NCBI GenBank assembly: GCA_012838795.1 | Contig: DUOO01000030.1 | Coordinates: 1-53,312, forward strand | DNA from: Clostridiaceae bacterium | Lineage (GTDB): Bacteria > Bacillota > Clostridia > Saccharofermentanales > DTU023 | Direction: 5' to 3' | DNA length: 53,312 nucleotides | Shown: one piece after another, positions 37,407 through 50,559 of the stretch | Layout: each line of letters begins with the position of its first letter | Position numbering within the stretch: the stretch's first letter is position 1 | The notes under the pieces: generated by a model | Databases searched by the model: none | Seen by the model: the letters and a program-made list of their open reading frames with translations, nothing else | Told to the model about the DNA's origin: nothing | Translations under genes and position numbers: made by a program

Positions 37407-39401
37407 ATGAGTAACGAGGCAACAAATCCTCAGACCAATCAAAATCGACAACAAAAATCTGCTGATTCAAGAACTGACGTTCAGGAACAAGTTTTGAACA
37501 GATTGAATAAATTAGAAGAATTAGAACAAGCCGGCAAAAATCCTTTTTGGATTACTACAGCTGAACAAACTGAACATAGTAAAGAAATAATAAGTAATTA
37601 TACACAATTTGAAGGTAAAGCAGTATCAGTTGCCGGTCGAATCATGGCAAAGCGAGGCATGGGGAAAGTCAGTTTTGTAGACTTGCATGACAGACAAGGC
37701 AATATTCAGGTTTTTACTAAATTTGATGCACTTACTGAGGAAGATTATCGAGCCTGGCAGAATCTGGATATAGGTGACTTGGTCAGTGTTAAAGGTGAAG
37801 TTTTTACTACACAAAAAGGTGAAATTTCCATCCGCAATCAAGGCTATCAGTTACTTGCAAAATGTTTACGCCCTTTGCCGGAAAAATATCATGGACTGAC
37901 AGATACCGATACCAGATATCGCAAGCGCTATCTGGATTTAATTGTCAACCCTGAAATCAAAGAGGTTTTTGAAAAACGCAGCAAAATCATAACTACGCTC
38001 AGACGTGAATTGGAAAAAATGGATTTTATTGAAGTTGAAACACCTCTTCTCAACTTGATAGCAGGTGGAGCTGCTGCGAGACCTTTCGTGACTTATCATA
38101 ATACATTGGACTTAAATCTCTTTTTAAGAATTTCACCCGAACTATATTTGAAACGTCTGATTGTCGGCGGTTTTGAAAAAGTATATGAAATAGGCCGTAA
38201 TTTCAGAAATGAAGGAATGTCAACCAAGCACAATCCGGAATTTACGATGATTGAGCTTTATCAAGCATATACCGATTATAACGGTATGATGGAAATCTGT
38301 GAGCATTTGATCAGTACGACTTGTACGGCAGTTAACGGAACTATGCAAATTCAATTTGGGGAACATGAGGTTGATTTAACACCGCCTTTTGCCAGAATGA
38401 CAATGTTGGAAGCAATTAAAAAGTATACCGGAATTGATTTTGAGATGATCGAAGACGATACAGCTGCACAAATTGCTGCTCAAGAAAAAGGAATAGGGGA
38501 ACTGGTTGCCGGTAAAACCAGAGGTGAAATAATCAACATATTCTTTGAAGAATTTTGTGAAAATAATTTGATTCAACCCACTTTTATATATGATTATCCG
38601 ATCGAAATATCTCCTTTAACCAAAAAGAAAAAATCTGATCCTCGTATGACAGAGCGTTTTGAAATATTCATCTGCGGTGCGGAATATGGTAATGCCTATT
38701 CCGAGCTGAACGATCCGAGAGATCAACACGAACGTTTTATCGAACAACAAAAACAGCGAGACGCCGGGGATGAAGAAGCAAACATTCCGGATCAGGATTT
38801 TGTTGAAGCGCTGGAATACGGTTTACCCCCAACCGGCGGACTTGGCATCGGAATTGATCGCTTAGTCATGCTCTTAACCAACTCCGCCTCGATTCGTGAT
38901 GTATTGCTTTTCCCGACAATGCGACCGTTAGGCAAACAAATGACAGAAAATGAGGTTGTCAGTCAAGAAGATTCTGCAACTTTTTATCCTGATGAGAATG
39001 TTGAAACTTTAGACATAGAGAAGCTGGATCTAGCTAAAGTTAAAGTTGAGCCTCTGTTCGAAGACATGGTTGATTTTGAAACATTCTCAAAATCTGACTT
39101 TAGAGTAGTAAAAGTATTAAATTGTGAAGAAGTTCCAAAGAGTAAAAGGTTATTGAAATTCACTTTAGACGATGGTTCAGGTGAAGAAAGAACAATTCTT
39201 TCAGGCATAAAAGAATACTATGAAGCTGAATCTTTGATAGGAAAAACCTTAGTAGCAATTACCAATTTGCCTGAAAGAAAAATGATGGGTCTGCCTTCAC
39301 AAGGAATGATTATCTCTGCAGTCTACGAATATGATGGCGAAGAAGGATTAAATCTTCTCATCTTGGATGACGATATACCTGCGGGCGCAAAATTGTATTA
39401 A
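37407..39401 (+). CDS. lysS: Lysyl-tRNA synthetase (class II) with C-terminal tRNA-binding domain
   Basis: Charges tRNA-Lys. 664 residues against the usual 490-510. Residues about 20-510 are a normal class II LysRS: OB fold (VSVAGRIMAKRGMGKVSFVDL), motif 2 (EIGRNFRNEGMSTKHNPEFT) and motif 3 (GLGIGIDRLVMLL). From about residue 549 an extra domain starts (FETFSKSDFRVVKVLNCEEV, ending GLPSQGMIISA and GAKLY), the EMAPII/MetRS-beta tRNA-binding fold. The join is in frame with no sign of frameshift, so it looks like a real fusion. Good SD (AGAGGAG). Follows greA by 107 bp. Confidence 0.95.
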   Translation: MSNEATNPQTNQNRQQKSADSRTDVQEQVLNRLNKLEELEQAGKNPFWITTAEQTEHSKEIISNYTQFEGKAVSVAGRIMAKRGMGKVSFVDLHDRQGNIQVFTKFDALTEEDYRAWQNLDIGDLVSVKGEVFTTQKGEISIRNQGYQLLAKCLRPLPEKYHGLTDTDTRYRKRYLDLIVNPEIKEVFEKRSKIITTLRRELEKMDFIEVETPLLNLIAGGAAARPFVTYHNTLDLNLFLRISPELYLKRLIVGGFEKVYEIGRNFRNEGMSTKHNPEFTMIELYQAYTDYNGMMEICEHLISTTCTAVNGTMQIQFGEHEVDLTPPFARMTMLEAIKKYTGIDFEMIEDDTAAQIAAQEKGIGELVAGKTRGEIINIFFEEFCENNLIQPTFIYDYPIEISPLTKKKKSDPRMTERFEIFICGAEYGNAYSELNDPRDQHERFIEQQKQRDAGDEEANIPDQDFVEALEYGLPPTGGLGIGIDRLVMLLTNSASIRDVLLFPTMRPLGKQMTENEVVSQEDSATFYPDENVETLDIEKLDLAKVKVEPLFEDMVDFETFSKSDFRVVKVLNCEEVPKSKRLLKFTLDDGSGEERTILSGIKEYYEAESLIGKTLVAITNLPERKMMGLPSQGMIISAVYEYDGEEGLNLLILDDDIPAGAKLY

Positions 39402-42457: not shown

Positions 42458-42623
42458 CTAAGCATGGTTATTATAGAAAATAAATCAGAATTAATTCTTT
42501 GTATAACCAAGGAACTGTTTGCATTACTGATTTACTGTCAGACATAGAACAATATTTCATTAATGATAATAAATTAGTATCCGGCAAACCAAGAATATTA
42601 AAATACTATCGGGAGGTAGAAAA

Positions 42624-43724
42624 GTGAAAAATTTAAAGAAAATCTTAGTTCTGGTACTTGCTTTAGTTATGATGATTTTAGTTGTTACTGCATGTGGCGG
42701 CGACGACAAGAAAGATGAAAAAGAAGAAGTAAAAGAGACAGAAAAAGAAACAGAAAAAGAGACAGAAAAAGAAACCGAAAAAGAGACAGAAAAAGAAACC
42801 GAAAAAGAAACCGAAAAAGAGACAGAAAAAGAAACAGAAAAAGAAACCGAAGCTGAAGTTGAAGAAGCTCCTGCCGGCGAAATGACCGGACAAATTAATA
42901 TTTATACCCGTGATGCGGCATCAGGAACTCGTGAAGGTTTTGAAAGTGTTGTAGGTTTTAAAGATCAGTTAACCGATGACGCTAATGAAGTTTCCTCTAA
43001 CGGTGATATGGCAACCAAAGTCGGTGAAGACGTTCAAGGTATCGGTTATGTCTCATTAACAACAGACTTTGAAGCCAATAATCTGCATCCGGCAAATTAT
43101 GAAGGCGTAGAACCTTCAGTTGAAACCGTAATTGACGGTTCATATCAGTTGAGTCGTCCTTTCTGCTATACAACACGTGCTGAAGGTGATTATGCAAGTG
43201 ATGAAAAAGAACAATTAGTTAAAGCTTTCATCGCATTCATGACTGAATCAACAGAAGGTAAAGAAGCTGTTTTAAGTGCCGGTGGAATCGTTGATGTTGA
43301 TGATAGCACACCTTGGGATGAGCTTAAGGCAGATTATCCGATTGTAGATCAAGATAATTCAGGTATTGAGATTACGACCGGTGGTTCAACATCAGTTGAA
43401 AAATCATTAACTGCTGCTTTGGAAGCATTCCAACCGTTAGCAGGCAACTTTGGTTTTGTTGTAAACCAAACAGGTTCAGGTGACGGCTGGAAACGTACAT
43501 TAGGTGATGATAAAGACGGTCCTAACGCTTCAGATATCGGTTTTGCTTCACGTAACTTCAAAGATGAAGAACCGACAGAAGATGCTATCAGTGCAGCAAA
43601 ATATTGTGATGACGCTATCGTAGTAGTTGTTGAAAAGAACAATCCTGTAACAGACTTCACACAACAAAATCTGTTTGATATCTTCACAGGTGCAATTACC
43701 AATTGGGAAGATATTGCTAAATAA
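42624..43724 (+). CDS. pstS: Phosphate-binding lipoprotein PstS, circularly permuted
   Basis: Substrate-binding component of the Pst phosphate transporter. 366 residues: lipoprotein signal with Cys24 (VTAC), then ten KET repeats in an acidic linker (about 37-75), then the binding domain. The order of the domain is swapped. Residues 90-243 carry what is normally the C-terminal part (TRDAASGTREGFE, SSNGDMATKV, GIGYVSL, SRPF), and residues 248-366 carry the normal N-terminal part (GGSTSVEKSL, DIGFASRNFKDEE), ending FDIFTGAITNWEDIAK. In classical PstS that end is directly followed by the SGTRE segment. GGGAGG before the start; first gene of the pst operon. Confidence 0.92.
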   Translation: MKNLKKILVLVLALVMMILVVTACGGDDKKDEKEEVKETEKETEKETEKETEKETEKETEKETEKETEKETEKETEAEVEEAPAGEMTGQINIYTRDAASGTREGFESVVGFKDQLTDDANEVSSNGDMATKVGEDVQGIGYVSLTTDFEANNLHPANYEGVEPSVETVIDGSYQLSRPFCYTTRAEGDYASDEKEQLVKAFIAFMTESTEGKEAVLSAGGIVDVDDSTPWDELKADYPIVDQDNSGIEITTGGSTSVEKSLTAALEAFQPLAGNFGFVVNQTGSGDGWKRTLGDDKDGPNASDIGFASRNFKDEEPTEDAISAAKYCDDAIVVVVEKNNPVTDFTQQNLFDIFTGAITNWEDIAK

Positions 43725-43845: not shown

Positions 43846-44805
43846 ATGACTACTGAACAACAAAATAAAAGTAAAACTTTAATAAGAGAACGGTCTGCAA
43901 AGCGCCGTTCTCTTTACAAGTCCGTCGATCGTACCATGCAATTTATTTTCCGCTTATGCGGATTGATTGCTGCATTGATGATTATTCTGATTGTATTTTT
44001 CGTAGCTGCACGCGGTGTTCAGGTTTTCTTACCGGGCTATGAAAATCCCGTTTCATTGGGAGAGTTTCTGACGGGTATGAGATGGCGTAGTGATCAAGGT
44101 GTTTACGGCGTATTTTTTATCGTAATTAATACAATCATCACGGCTTTTTTTGCCGGATTAATTGCTTTCCCCTTATCTGTATTATCAGCTTTAATGATCG
44201 TGAAAATTGCTCCGAAAAGGTTAAGCAATGTTTTAACTACGGTTGTTGAATTGCTGGCGGCAATTCCTTCAGTTGTTTACGGTGTTTTTGCCTCAGGTGC
44301 CATTACCGATATTGTTGAAAAAATGGCAGGTTGGTTTAACTATACTACCTATGGCGGCAACTCGATGTTGGCGGTAATTCTTTTGTTGGCAATAATGATT
44401 TATCCGACTATTACCTCAATGGCAGTAGTTGCAATCCGAGCAGTTCCGGAAAGTCATGAGCTTGGTTCTTTGGCACTTGGTGCTTCCAGAACACAAACCA
44501 ACTTTAAGGTAGTACTTGCATCTGCAAAATCAGGTATATTTGCCGGACTTATTCTGGGTTTAGGACGAGCTTTCGGTGAAGCGACCGCTGTTTCAATGGT
44601 TGCCGGTAATGCCATGAAAGGGCCTACTTGGAATCCGTTTGACCTGACCAGAACATTAACTACAACAATGCTGTCAGGCTTACATGAAACAGTAGGTGTC
44701 GATTATGACGTGCGCTTCTCGGTCGGTATTGTATTAATGATCATTATTCTGATCACCAATTTAACGATCAATGCTTTACGTAAAAAAATGGAGTCGGGAG
44801 ATTAG
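43846..44805 (+). CDS. pstC: Phosphate ABC transporter permease PstC
   Basis: One of two membrane subunits of the Pst importer. 319 residues with six predicted helices after a basic cytoplasmic start. Family features: TFLPGY-type first loop (QVFLPGYENPVSLGEFLTG), VYGVFFIVINTIITAFFAGLIAFPLS, ELLAAIPSVVYGVFA, the EAA coupling loop (ELGSLALGASRTQTNFKVVLASAKSGI) and GRAFGEATAVSMVAGN. SD AGAGAG. Works with PstA and PstB. Confidence 0.95.
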   Translation: MTTEQQNKSKTLIRERSAKRRSLYKSVDRTMQFIFRLCGLIAALMIILIVFFVAARGVQVFLPGYENPVSLGEFLTGMRWRSDQGVYGVFFIVINTIITAFFAGLIAFPLSVLSALMIVKIAPKRLSNVLTTVVELLAAIPSVVYGVFASGAITDIVEKMAGWFNYTTYGGNSMLAVILLLAIMIYPTITSMAVVAIRAVPESHELGSLALGASRTQTNFKVVLASAKSGIFAGLILGLGRAFGEATAVSMVAGNAMKGPTWNPFDLTRTLTTTMLSGLHETVGVDYDVRFSVGIVLMIIILITNLTINALRKKMESGD

Positions 44806-44925: not shown

Positions 44926-46215
44926 ATGAATAGAATAAGAATAATAAAAGATAGAATAGCTGAAGGCTTAACTTGGCTGTCATCCGGTATATCGGCTCTT
45001 ATGCTGATTGCGATATTCGTGTTTATTTTTAAACGTGGCTGGTCTACCTTAAATTGGGATTTGTTGAAAAACAATTACAATTCAGAAAATTTGATGGCCG
45101 GTTATGATCATATCGATTGGGATGAACATGGTGCTTTCACAGCTCCTGGCAGCCTTCCGGATGATGCATTTTTTTCGGAAAAATACGGTGTAGCTTTTGT
45201 AGACAGCGTCAGTGCGGCAAAAGCACCACAAATGGAAGTTGTTTTTCTTGATCCTGAATCACCGTTGCAAGATGGAAAAATTACTACTGCCGGACCCAGA
45301 CAAGGTGAAAAACTTGGTTTAGAAGAAGGCTTGTATTTGAAGAAAATATCATACGTTAATCTTGAGGGTGATAAAAAATCTGCCGGTTTAACTGCTACTC
45401 AAGGCAAAACATCTGAAGAATTAGTATCAGTATTAGACAATGATTCTACAGAAATAGTTGACTTTTATGCTCAAACTGAAGGCGGAGGACTTAAAGGTTC
45501 TATTATTACAACCTTACTTCTGATTGGCCTTACCTTGCTGATTGCCTTACCGATCGGGGTATTTGCTGCAATTTATTTGCATGAATTAGCCCCGAAAAAC
45601 AAGGTTACCGCATGGATCAGATCTTCGATTGAATTATTGTCGGGTGTTCCGAGTGTTATTTTCGGTTTAATGGGTATGACGATGTTATTCCAAGTTACTC
45701 GTTTATTTGGTATAACCGGACAAAGTACGATGTTAGGCGCATTAACATTAGCAGTTATTCTTTTACCTGTTATAATAAGACAAACCGAGGAAGCTTTGAT
45801 CAATGTTCCCGACGGATATAGAATGGCTAGTTTGTCAATGGGCGCTACTCAATTTCAAACAATATATAAAATCATCCTTCCTAATGCTCTGCCGGGTATT
45901 TTAAGTGCAACACTTTTGTCGATCAGTCGAATTATCGGCGAGTCGGCAGCTCTGATTTTCACTATGGGAACAGCGATCATGGATAATCCGGCTTGGAATA
46001 CACGCGGTACTTCCTTAGCAGTACATATCTGGACAGTGATGAGTGGAGAACAACCGAACTTTGAACTTGCTTCAGCAATTTCAATTGTTATTTTGATTAT
46101 CGTCTTGATTTTGAATGTAAGCGTAAAATACATTACTTATCGCATGACAAGAGATAAAGATGAACAAAAAAAGAACAATAAAAAAGAAAAAGTAAAAGCT
46201 ACAACTGAAACATGA
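44926..46215 (+). CDS. pstA: Phosphate ABC transporter permease PstA with extracytoplasmic insertion
   Basis: Second membrane subunit. 429 residues against a usual 280-300. Helix 1 near 15-37 is followed by an extra hydrophilic region of about 145 residues (45-188), then helix 2 (SIITTLLLIGLTLLIALPIGV), ELLSGVPSVIFGL, the coupling loop (RMASLSMGATQFQTIYKIILPNALPGI) and ISRIIGESAALIFT. The extra region has PDZ-like features: a GVAFVDSVSAAKAPQ start, a GLEEGLYLKKISYVNLEG stretch and a final segment with TSEELVSVL. No good Shine-Dalgarno. The Lys-rich C-terminal tail is also long. Confidence 0.92.
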   Translation: MNRIRIIKDRIAEGLTWLSSGISALMLIAIFVFIFKRGWSTLNWDLLKNNYNSENLMAGYDHIDWDEHGAFTAPGSLPDDAFFSEKYGVAFVDSVSAAKAPQMEVVFLDPESPLQDGKITTAGPRQGEKLGLEEGLYLKKISYVNLEGDKKSAGLTATQGKTSEELVSVLDNDSTEIVDFYAQTEGGGLKGSIITTLLLIGLTLLIALPIGVFAAIYLHELAPKNKVTAWIRSSIELLSGVPSVIFGLMGMTMLFQVTRLFGITGQSTMLGALTLAVILLPVIIRQTEEALINVPDGYRMASLSMGATQFQTIYKIILPNALPGILSATLLSISRIIGESAALIFTMGTAIMDNPAWNTRGTSLAVHIWTVMSGEQPNFELASAISIVILIIVLILNVSVKYITYRMTRDKDEQKKNNKKEKVKATTET

Positions 46216-46333: not shown

Positions 46334-47119
46334 ATGACACAACAAATACAAGTACAAACTGATAATGATAATGCGTTCGATATTAGAGATTTTGATCTTT
46401 ACTACACGGATTTTCATGCTTTGAAAAAAATCAATATGCAGATTCCTTTGAATAAAGTAACTGCTTTTATAGGTCCCTCAGGTTGCGGCAAGTCAACTTT
46501 ATTACGTTGTTTTAATCGTATGAATGACTTAATTGAAGGTGTAAGAATTGAGGGTGAAATTTATCATCATAATGTTGAAATTCATAGTAAAGAAGTTGAC
46601 GTTGTTCAATTAAGAACTGATGTAGGAATGGTCTTTCAACAACCGAATCCATTTCCGATGTCAATATACGATAATGTGGCTTATGGGCTGCGTTGCCAGG
46701 GTGTCAGAGATCGTAAAATTTTAGACGAAGTTGTCGAAACATCACTCAAACAAGCTGCGCTTTGGGATGAGGTAAAAGATCATCTCAATCGTAATGCGAC
46801 AAAACTATCCGGTGGTCAACAGCAAAGGTTATGTATTGCCAGAGCTATTTCTCTAACCCCGGAAGTAATTCTGATGGATGAACCGACCTCGGCACTTGAT
46901 CCGATTGCAACAAATAAAATTGAAGATTTAATTACAGAATTGAAAGATTCCTATACAATAATTATTGTAACGCACTCGATGAATCAGGCTGCACGTGTAA
47001 GTGACAGGACCGCATTTTTCCTTTTGGGAGATATGATCGAATATGATGTTACGGAAAAAGTTTTTCATAATCCGGAAGATAAAAGAACCGAAGATTATAT
47101 TTCCGGAAAATTCGGTTAA
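46334..47119 (+). CDS. pstB: Phosphate ABC transporter ATPase PstB
   Basis: ATP-hydrolysing subunit of the Pst importer. 261 residues with Walker [10 protein letters not shown] (Lys53), Q-loop [14 protein letters not shown], signature [14 protein letters not shown], Walker [13 protein letters not shown] and switch His in [18 protein letters not shown] and the YISGKFG ending are typical of PstB. SD GAAGGAG. Followed by phoU after 69 bp. Confidence 0.97.
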
Positions 47120-47188: not shown

Positions 47189-47890
47189 ATGGCACAACGC
47201 GTGAATTATCAAAAAGAATTAGAGAATTTACATCAAAGTATGATTCATATGGGTTCTGATGTAGAAGAATCCATTCATTCAGCAGTGCATGCTTTAACAG
47301 ATAATGATATTGAACTGGCATCAAAAGTAATCGAGCGTGATGATGTAATTGATGATCAGGAACGTAAGATTACTCACGAATGTATTATGCTGATAGCCCG
47401 ACAACAACCGGTAGCAAGTGATTTACGTAACATTACAGCAAATATGAAGCTGGTTACCGATTTGGAAAGAGTAGCCGATCATGCTGAAGATATTGCAGAG
47501 CATGTTATTTATTTGAACGAAAAAAATTATAACGTTACTGTCCCGCATGATGTTGTTAAATTGACCGATCATATATTGAGAATGGTTCATTTGGTTTTAG
47601 ATGCTTATGTCGAAACCGACTTGGAAAAAGCAAAACAAATAGTCATGATGGATATTCGTGTTAATGCATTGTACAGTAAATTAAAAAAATATCTCGTACG
47701 TCAAATGAAACTTGATTCGGATATGGCTCCTGCAATGGTTGAAATGTTGCTGGTTTGCAAGCATTTGGAACGTATAGGCGATCATGCGAAAAACATTGCG
47801 GAATGGATAGTATATTTTATTGAAGGTGAATATGTAACATCTGCCGAAATTCGAAGAGAAGTTGAAAAAAATGAAAAAGATAAGGAATAA
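47189..47890 (+). CDS. phoU: Phosphate signalling protein PhoU
   Basis: Negative regulator that relays PstB state to the PhoR kinase. 233 residues, two repeats of a three-helix bundle, with the metal-binding motifs DLERVADHAEDIAEHV (first half) and KHLERIGDHAKNIAEWIV (second half), both intact. SD AAAGGA. Ends two bases before the phoP start. Confidence 0.95.
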   Translation: MAQRVNYQKELENLHQSMIHMGSDVEESIHSAVHALTDNDIELASKVIERDDVIDDQERKITHECIMLIARQQPVASDLRNITANMKLVTDLERVADHAEDIAEHVIYLNEKNYNVTVPHDVVKLTDHILRMVHLVLDAYVETDLEKAKQIVMMDIRVNALYSKLKKYLVRQMKLDSDMAPAMVEMLLVCKHLERIGDHAKNIAEWIVYFIEGEYVTSAEIRREVEKNEKDKE

Positions 47891-47892
47891 CA

Positions 47893-48675
47893 GTGGGTGA
47901 GCAATCATTTGTCGTTGTTGTAGAAGATGATCAATCAATAGCCGAATTAATACGTTATAATCTTGAAAGTGAAGCCTATCAAGTTTTGCAAGCTGAATCC
48001 GGTGATGAGTTATTTCGTAAACTCAGTCATGAAAACAGAAACGTCGATTTATTTATACTGGATGTGATGTTACCCGGTATGGACGGATTTGAAATTTGTC
48101 AGATTCTGCAGAAAAACAAGAAATATTTGTGGTCTTCATATTTATTTTTAACCGCACGTTCAACGGAAAAAGATAAGTTGGCAGGGTTTAACGCCGGAGC
48201 GGATGACTTTCTGACTAAACCTTTCGGTATGAGAGAGTTATTGGCAAGGGTTAAACTTTTGGTTAAGCGGTGTAAAGAACGATTAGCGTTAAGCGAAGGC
48301 ACTTCTTTTCAATCTGACCAAATCACCAGCGAAACAGAGGTATCAGCTAATGAGATTATCCGCATTGGCGGGATAACCTTAGATGATGCGAGACATCGTG
48401 TTTATGCCAATAATAATGAAGTTGAAATGACTCATCGGGAATATGAGCTCCTTAAGTTTTTAATGATTAATAACGGCTTGGCTTTTACCAGAGATGATTT
48501 ATTAAATCGTGTTTGGGGATATGAATATAGCGGAGAGACCAGAACGGTTGATGTTCATATTCGTCAATTACGACGCAAAATTGAGGATGATCCTTCAAAA
48601 CCAATCTATATCCAAACGGTACGAGGAGTAGGATATCGTTTTGCAGAATGTGATGAAAATAAAGTTAAGATTTAA
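47893..48675 (+). CDS. phoP: Phosphate regulon response regulator PhoP/PhoB
   Basis: 260 residues: receiver with acidic pocket EDD, phosphoacceptor Asp57 (LFILDVMLPGMDGF), Thr (FLTARSTEK), Lys (FLTKPFG), then a winged helix with FTRDDLLNRVWGYEY and RTVDVHIRQLRRKIEDDP. A spacer of about 30 residues joins the domains. GTG start at 47893. It is expected to bind the box at 42395 and to be phosphorylated by PhoR encoded next. Confidence 0.93.
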   Translation: MGEQSFVVVVEDDQSIAELIRYNLESEAYQVLQAESGDELFRKLSHENRNVDLFILDVMLPGMDGFEICQILQKNKKYLWSSYLFLTARSTEKDKLAGFNAGADDFLTKPFGMRELLARVKLLVKRCKERLALSEGTSFQSDQITSETEVSANEIIRIGGITLDDARHRVYANNNEVEMTHREYELLKFLMINNGLAFTRDDLLNRVWGYEYSGETRTVDVHIRQLRRKIEDDPSKPIYIQTVRGVGYRFAECDENKVKI

Positions 48676-48723: not shown

Positions 48724-50559
48724 ATGAAAAAACGCTTAAGAATATTTGGCAATATTCTAATCATTTTAATAATTTTTATTGTTTCAACTTTAAATTATCG
48801 AGAATTAAGGTCTAAACATATTCAAAGTTTTGAAAACTATTTAGGTAACGTAACATCATATTTTGATCAGGCATTGAGTCGTATTTTATTAAATTCAATC
48901 GACGGAACAGACGAGACAAAGTTGATAAGTCAGGCGGAAATTATTGAACAAATCAATTCTGAAGAAAGTGGTGATTTTCAAAAACTGCTTGAACAAACAA
49001 TTGATGAAACAATGGAAGTGTTTAATGTCTTGGCATCGGATTTAAGAATTACTGTGATGGATGAAACCGGTAAAGTACTTGCAGATAGCATTTTTCCTGT
49101 TAAAGAATTGAATAATCATCGTGCCAGACCTGAGGTCTGGAAAGTAATTTCCGGTGCAAAGAACTATTCTAATGTGCGTTATTCGGATACTGAATCTGCC
49201 GAACGTTTATATTTTTCTGCCAGATCAGACCACAATAATATGATTGTCAGAGCTGCAGTGTTAATGGATACGCTAATTGACGCAAAAGTGACAATTACCC
49301 TATATGCTTTAATTATCGGTGGTGTATCTTTAGTTATATTCAATTTGATTTTAAGTCTGATATTCAAAAAACAAGATCAACATCAAATAGATTTAGTACA
49401 AGCTTTGACGAAAATTGATGCCGGAGATTTGACGGCTCGCATGGAAGAAGATCGTCATGCCTCTGTTGATAATCGAAAATTTGTTGAAAATTTTAATCTT
49501 ACGATATCGAATTTTGAACAGACTTTCAAAGAAATGCAGGAAGGACGAATTTGGCTCAATGCAATAGTTAACTCACTCATGGAGCCTTTGGTCGTAGTCA
49601 ATCAGGAATTACAGGTAGTTTTTGCCAATAAATATGCTAAAACTTTGTTCAATAGGAATATTGATCCTGAAGAAACTCCATATCCATTTGTCCTGTTAAC
49701 TCACGATGCAAAACTGGATGAACTCTGCCAACGGGTTTTTGATTCCGGTAAAACTACACGTGAAGAGTTCAGGCTGCAGGTAACCGGAAGCTACAATGCT
49801 TTCCAAGTCATGGTTTCTCCGGTAGATGTGAACTATGTAGTCGTATTATTCAATGATATGTCTTATGAATATGAAGCCCGTCAATTGCGCTCAAGTTTTG
49901 TGGCGAATGTGACTCATGAATTAAAAACACCTTTGACATCAATACGCGGATTTGTTGAAACTTTGCGTAATCGCAATAATACCACTCCGGAGCAAGCAAA
50001 TAATTTCTTGGATATTATCGATGTTGAAGCCGTACGACTGGAACGTTTAATCAATGATATTTTGCGACTTTCCGATATTGAACGCTTAAGTAATGATTCT
50101 GAATTGGAAGATTTTGATTTGGTTGAATTGGTGGATGAATGTCTGGTTCAATTAGATGATCAAGCCAGTGAAAAACAAATTAATTTAATTCCGAGTGATG
50201 AGCCGACATTTTTACCGGTTAAAGCTAATAGAGATAGAATCAAACAAGTGTTGCTTAATTTGTTGGATAATGCGATTAAATATCATCGCATACATGGCAA
50301 TGTATGGATAGATATGGAACGTCAAGGCAAATTTGTGACGATAAAAGTTAAAGATGACGGCTACGGTTTTGATGAACAATCAGCAAGAAGAGTTTTTGAA
50401 CGCTTTTATCGTGTCGATAAAAGCCGCTCTCGCATGCTGGGCGGCACCGGTTTAGGCTTATCTATCGTCAAGCATATTGCACTATTGTACGATGGCGAAG
50501 CAAGTGTTAAAAGCACACCGAATGTTGGCAGTACTTTCAAAGTTATTTTGAAAATCTAG
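48724..50559 (+). CDS. phoR: Phosphate regulon sensor histidine kinase PhoR
   Basis: 611 residues: helix near 7-22, extracytoplasmic domain (about 25-195), helix near 197-217, HAMP, a PAS domain (WLNAIVNSLMEPLVVVNQELQVVFAN, about 278-380), HisKA with NVTHELKTPLTSIRGF (His398), and HATPase with LLNLLDNAIKYH, KDDGYGFDEQSARRVFERFY and GGTGLGLSIVKHI. Position after phoU and phoP supports the phosphate role. Probably the last gene of the operon. Confidence 0.93.
   Translation: MKKRLRIFGNILIILIIFIVSTLNYRELRSKHIQSFENYLGNVTSYFDQALSRILLNSIDGTDETKLISQAEIIEQINSEESGDFQKLLEQTIDETMEVFNVLASDLRITVMDETGKVLADSIFPVKELNNHRARPEVWKVISGAKNYSNVRYSDTESAERLYFSARSDHNNMIVRAAVLMDTLIDAKVTITLYALIIGGVSLVIFNLILSLIFKKQDQHQIDLVQALTKIDAGDLTARMEEDRHASVDNRKFVENFNLTISNFEQTFKEMQEGRIWLNAIVNSLMEPLVVVNQELQVVFANKYAKTLFNRNIDPEETPYPFVLLTHDAKLDELCQRVFDSGKTTREEFRLQVTGSYNAFQVMVSPVDVNYVVVLFNDMSYEYEARQLRSSFVANVTHELKTPLTSIRGFVETLRNRNNTTPEQANNFLDIIDVEAVRLERLINDILRLSDIERLSNDSELEDFDLVELVDECLVQLDDQASEKQINLIPSDEPTFLPVKANRDRIKQVLLNLLDNAIKYHRIHGNVWIDMERQGKFVTIKVKDDGYGFDEQSARRVFERFYRVDKSRSRMLGGTGLGLSIVKHIALLYDGEASVKSTPNVGSTFKVILKI

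Follow-up and report, generated by a model that had tools for sequence, protein, structure and literature searches.

The Two Halves of PstS in Swapped Order

The gene at positions 42624-43724 (+) of the stretch of DNA analysed here (53,312 nucleotides, referred to as the window) raises the question of whether a phosphate-binding protein (PstS), in which the two conserved halves stand in the reverse of the classical order, is a genuine receptor, whether this order is peculiar to one genome, and how it could have arisen. The 366-aa open reading frame starts with a GTG codon, 8 nt after a ribosome-binding-site-like GGGAGG (42611-42616, +; GGAGG at 42612-42616), and a promoter scan counted no more promoter sites than were found in shuffles. 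From its sequence, the product is predicted to consist of a lipoprotein signal peptide (aa 1-23; 42624-42692, +) with the lipobox VVTA/C, a lipid-anchor Cys24 followed by a low-complexity Glu/Lys/Thr linker (aa 24-87; 42693-42884, +), the second half of PstS (C-block, aa 89-233; 42888-43322, +), and the first half (N-block, aa 248-364; 43365-43715, +), with a joint of the old C- and N-termini (aa 223-247; 43290-43364, +) that was delimited by alignment and forms short helices in the structural model. Both halves are present, matching profile positions 1-145 of 145 (229 bits) and 2-118 of 118 (178 bits; 117 positions) respectively. The C-block starts 7 residues ahead of the phosphate-loop motif RDAASGTRE (aa 96-104; 42909-42935, +), whose R, S, G, T, and R are invariant in both the permuted and the classical sets, and the N-block, which ends at FTGAITNWEDI, contains the phosphate-loop motif GSTSV (aa 254-258; 43383-43397, +) as well as the motifs QTGSGDG (aa 282-288; 43467-43487, +) and IGFASR (aa 305-310; 43536-43553, +), all assigned by sequence comparison.

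When searched with phmmer against PDB chains, each of the classical PstS structures 4q8r, 4gd5, and 1twy was matched twice with the order swapped; for example, residues 250-364 of the window protein align to residues 6-113 of 4q8r (i-E 1.1e-13), and residues 90-214 to its residues 119-235 (i-E 9.4e-10). Two separate stretches of the protein are likewise matched by NCBIfam TIGR02136 and by Pfam PBP_like_2. TIGR02136, a model that follows the classical order, scores the whole protein at 137.7 bits, below the NCBIfam cut-off of 206.6, and the protein is classed here as a permuted PstS rather than as a standard member of that family. In the native order it gives two matches to the classical protein L067 (127 bits in all), while a copy rotated in silico gives one continuous match (139 bits, E 7e-43, query positions 3-259). 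The phmmer and profile matches bear out an earlier note on this DNA, which had described a swap of the two blocks with the chain ending at FTGAITNWEDIAK, and the permutation-aware alignment that it proposed likewise merges the two swapped matches into one that runs end to end. Its two-block layout holds, but the edges it gave (90-243 and 248-366) need to be moved to about 89-233 and 248-364. Similarly, the short linker that it placed near 230-248 does join the old termini, but it is not an arbitrary linker: it is a segment of about 25 aa (about aa 223-247; ...PWDELKxDHPIVDQDNS...), in which W, P-I-V, and DNS are conserved across the alignment of the window's type of PstS (B-type, see below).

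Twenty further genomes, drawn from the genus, family, and order of the window and including one assembled as a single contig, show the same C-N order, which is therefore not an assembly error; other Firmicutes in the class and phylum samples share it too. Comparison of the window gene with five genes of the same genus gave dN of 0.045-0.209 and dS of 0.33-1.27, which shows that the permuted pstS is under purifying selection. An assembly artefact or a decaying gene remnant might be suspected from the contig ends or gaps that lie inside the gene in several relatives. However, the breaks fall where multi-copy arrays are probable, and with the order repeated across independent genomes, which refutes such an explanation, a dN/dS of about 0.1-0.2, and a complete operon around the gene, it has practically no chance of being correct.

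Predicted Fold and the Permuted Structure 4H1X

An AF2 model of the window's PstS, built with 24 related permuted sequences, reached a pLDDT of 94.6 and a pTM of 0.87. Its top Foldseek match (E 4.7e-23, TM 0.81/0.88) is 4H1X, the crystal structure of a Streptococcus pneumoniae protein (SP_2084) deposited as PstS2 and released in 2012. VIA-align superposed the model on 4H1X end to end (Z 30.8, rmsd 1.7 A, 249 residues), whereas only 132 residues were aligned with the classical 4gd5 (Z 11.2), because VIA-align is sequential. Thus, structure prediction and superposition gave what the earlier note had expected, two blocks that together complete one PstS fold. S. pneumoniae PstS2 resembles the window's PstS in its permuted order, in being cut after FTGxITNW, and in matching it end to end in both sequence and structure; it also matches a divergent permuted protein, L068, end to end in sequence (E 1.4e-58). 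As 4H1X is permuted at the same place, a permuted PstS fold has been in the PDB since 2012. We found no account of 4H1X or of a permuted PstS in the literature, although this absence is weak as subscription papers lay outside the search. The permuted order is not unique to the window's genome; it is widespread, and its fold is already represented in the PDB.

Distribution of A-Type and B-Type PstS

We refer to the common permuted form of about 300 aa, the type of 4H1X, as A-type, and to the window's form as B-type. 4H1X has a shorter joint than the window protein and is 28% identical to it over the aligned part. At E <= 1e-34, a profile of permuted PstS matched 78 of 391 genomes in the class sample, and in about 73 of these the match covered both blocks. 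In the phylum sample it matched 17 of 398, or about 14 once two NCNC tandems and a match to the C-block only are dropped. At least 31 of the loci retrieved in these scans were C-N with both blocks, and the rest were judged by match span and open-frame length. Complete or almost complete B-type genes occur in 21 genomes, including the window's, and fragments in several more; all of these genomes belong to two families (f1 and f4) of a single order. A search of viral contigs revealed no relative.

The ETEKE-type linker (42693-42884, +) has counterparts in the same genome, where many other genes encode similar lipoprotein N-termini. A very long EKET linker was considered as a cause and rejected, since the linkers of B-type proteins differ greatly in length, from about 10 to 80 aa, and such linkers are also present on the genome's other lipoproteins. 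In genera g4 and g5, the B-type proteins (L063:8046-8819, L064:1-549, L066:7615-7950, and L079:6598-6984) have signal peptides without a lipobox Cys and may be secreted rather than lipid-anchored; these four genes break at contig ends or gaps. Genome G002, of the window's own genus, contains an A-type permuted PstS (L068:6379-7269, -) and a short PstA with no B-type operon, which suggests operon replacement by transfer.

One Permutation or Two

On sequence comparison, we lean toward A-type and B-type being products of two separate permutation events. The best PstS trees, in which 4H1X is represented by its close match L068, place B-type with the classical proteins; all C-N rows form one clade in 0 of 200 bootstrap trees, and the starred branches of the reduced PstS tree force 2 changes. 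Further, the window protein scores 127 bits against the classical L067 but 64-67 bits against the collinear A-type proteins, and QxGS is common to B-type and classical proteins whereas A-type has QxDS. The alternative, a single permutation in the common ancestor of both types after which B-type strongly diverged, retains a substantial probability, albeit one short of even. The cut site of A- and B-type is the same within a few residues, and the AU test on PstS does not clearly reject a single clade, with p of 0.109 without L140, 0.076 for the reduced set, and 0.046 for all sequences; the permease tree, used as an independent test, gave p of 0.257. The B-type stem amounts to 1.3 changes per column, so that long-branch effects are possible.

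Tandem Forms and the Origin of the C-N Order

Tandem forms of both orders occur. L055:9696-12665 (-) is a lipoprotein ORF of 990 aa consisting of three fused permuted units (CNCNCN) that are 91-94% identical in DNA. In G010, two contig ends inside the gene are 89.6% identical, implying at least two units; L049 contains two adjacent genes, and several other relatives have a contig end or gap within the gene. Tandem fusions in classical order (NCNC) were found in two genomes of one genus in the phylum sample (L137:1105-2736, - and L138:1105-2697, -). G864 and G905, which looked like carriers of permuted PstS in the scan, were rejected as they are NCNC tandems.

The duplication-and-loss model of circular permutation requires a tandem protein that holds both registers. 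The N-to-C junction inside CNCNCN is of about classical length, and the tandem protein therefore holds both, while NCNC is the arrangement expected of a duplication intermediate. The C-N order would have arisen by in-frame tandem duplication of pstS followed by loss of the outer halves, although no direct ancestor array was found.

The same tandem proteins and their junction of about classical length, across which an N-block could pair with the C-block of the next unit, would also fit a domain-swapped dimer or oligomer in which the N-block of one chain closes on the C-block of another. Yet the C-N joint within a unit is conserved in B-type, and the confident single-chain model fits 4H1X over one chain, so that we regard swapping between chains as very unlikely and retain the permuted monomer.

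The Pst Operon and a PDZ-Like Insert in PstA

Permuted pstS is the first gene of an operon in the order pstS-pstC-pstA-pstB-phoU-phoP-phoR, all on the same strand (+), and is the only PstS found in a search of the genome. The permeases PstC (43846-44805) and PstA (44926-46215; 429 aa, with an extracytoplasmic insert) match NCBIfam TIGR02138 (230.7 bits, cut-off 196.5) and TIGR00974 (225.6 bits, cut-off 193.5) respectively. The ATPase gene pstB (46334-47119), a conserved neighbour, as well as phoU (47189-47890) and genes for a PhoP-like response regulator (47893-48675) and a PhoR-like sensor kinase (48724-50559), were assigned by sequence and place in the operon.

PstA is 409-452 aa long in B-type operons compared with 261-389 aa elsewhere (lengths are those of open frames, leaving out L060, which is split by a frameshift), because of an insert of about 135 aa after the first transmembrane segment. 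In the window this insert lies at 45031-45492 (+), with the well-modelled part at 45079-45480 (fragment residues 17-150). It is present in 23 of 23 B-type operons with a readable PstA (two of which show only the last N-block) and in 3 of 391 class genomes, all three of which carry B-type, whereas the 11 operons from the order that are classical or A-type all lack it. The AF2 model of the insert (pLDDT 85.5) suggests a PDZ-like domain: PDZ domains make up all of the best 50 rows in VIA (best Z 8.9, rmsd 2.3 A, 90 of 94 residues), while Foldseek matches are weak (best E 0.25) and a Pfam search of the insert gave no PDZ match. No PstA with a PDZ domain was found in the literature, a weak absence given that subscription papers lay outside the search. 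Such a domain would be an addition to the textbook transporter. The A-type operons examined, unlike the window's, have a PstA without the PDZ-like insert. What is new here is the B-type module, which combines permuted PstS, the PDZ-like PstA insert, and tandem arrays.

The linkage of the insert to B-type PstS represents one evolutionary event and is not enough to establish that the two are functionally connected. Binding of the PDZ-like domain to the new C-terminus of PstS is not favoured, as the last residues vary (AK, VQ, GK, LD, IK, LQ, LN, IN) and PstS ends without the typical hydrophobic end of a PDZ ligand. Tentatively, and with the odds against it as a whole, we propose that PstS was permuted twice at the same surface loop, and that the permuted receptor and the PDZ-like domain of PstA form a co-inherited module in which the latter helps the re-tethered receptor, or tandem C-N arrays of it, to dock or take up position on the permease.

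Proposed Function and Ligand

Judged from sequence and operon context, the circularly permuted PstS of the window is very probably a real and functional phosphate-binding lipoprotein that serves a Pst ABC importer. Behind the predicted export signal and lipid anchor comes the flexible linker, which leads into the second half of PstS; the conserved joint ties the old C-terminus to the old N-terminus, and the chain stops just after FTGAITNW, where a classical chain runs on to SGTR. Phosphate would bind in the cleft and then pass to PstC/PstA, as with classical PstS. Both FTGxITNW and SGTR belong to the lobe that is continuous in classical PstS; based on this knowledge of the PstS fold, and as the permuted topology implies, the tether would run via that lobe. 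Most likely, then, the protein acts as a phosphate receptor of the usual lipid-anchored kind, except that its tether leaves from the opposite lobe.

In 23 B-type sequences, the residues GSTS, GS.xG, SR, and R..SGTR are invariant, save for G/S at one GSG position. B-type proteins have Ala, Ser, or Glu in place of the Asp in the classical R-x-D-G-SGT motif, and ligand or affinity could therefore differ. The loss of this Asp would be consistent with a permuted protein that binds a different oxyanion (arsenate, sulfate, or phosphonate), but the window protein is the sole PstS found in the genome, lies inside a pst-phoU-phoPR operon, and keeps all the remaining phosphate-loop residues, which makes a ligand other than phosphate very improbable.

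Relation to Known Binding Proteins

Classical TIGR02136 PstS (4GD5, 4Q8R, and 1TWY; E. coli PstS) has both halves, the phosphate-loop motifs, and the operon context in common with the window protein, but differs in its N-C order, its tether at the old N-terminus, and, in the operons examined, a PstA without the insert. Among other binding proteins, OpuAC of Bacillus subtilis (2B4L, 5NXX), which we take to be permuted relative to ProX, is collinear with the permuted window model (Z 9.7, 227 residues), but binds glycine-betaine and is 12% identical. Natural circular permutants among ABC binding proteins are seldom described. TpMglB-2 (Tp0684), a glucose-binding lipoprotein of Treponema pallidum, is one that binds its ligand and closes, and its authors suggest tethering as the reason for the permuted topology (PMC4990184). 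As a tethered, circularly permuted ABC binding protein, it is a close functional precedent for the window's PstS, from which it differs in its type I (cluster B) fold, glucose ligand, other cut, and a moved part that is poorly matched in sequence.

The CN, NC, NCNC, and CNCNCN forms of one receptor coexist among related bacteria, so that the duplication route to permutation, as well as what changes when a Venus-flytrap protein is tethered by its other lobe, can be tested directly. These results also bear on annotation, as the window's permuted form stays below the cut-off of models built for the classical order, although about one fifth of the sampled class genomes carry a permuted PstS.

Elsewhere in the window (37407-39401, +), a lysyl-tRNA synthetase of 664 aa carries a C-terminal tRNA_bind domain (PF01588, E 2.4e-23), a domain familiar on methionyl- rather than lysyl-tRNA synthetases.
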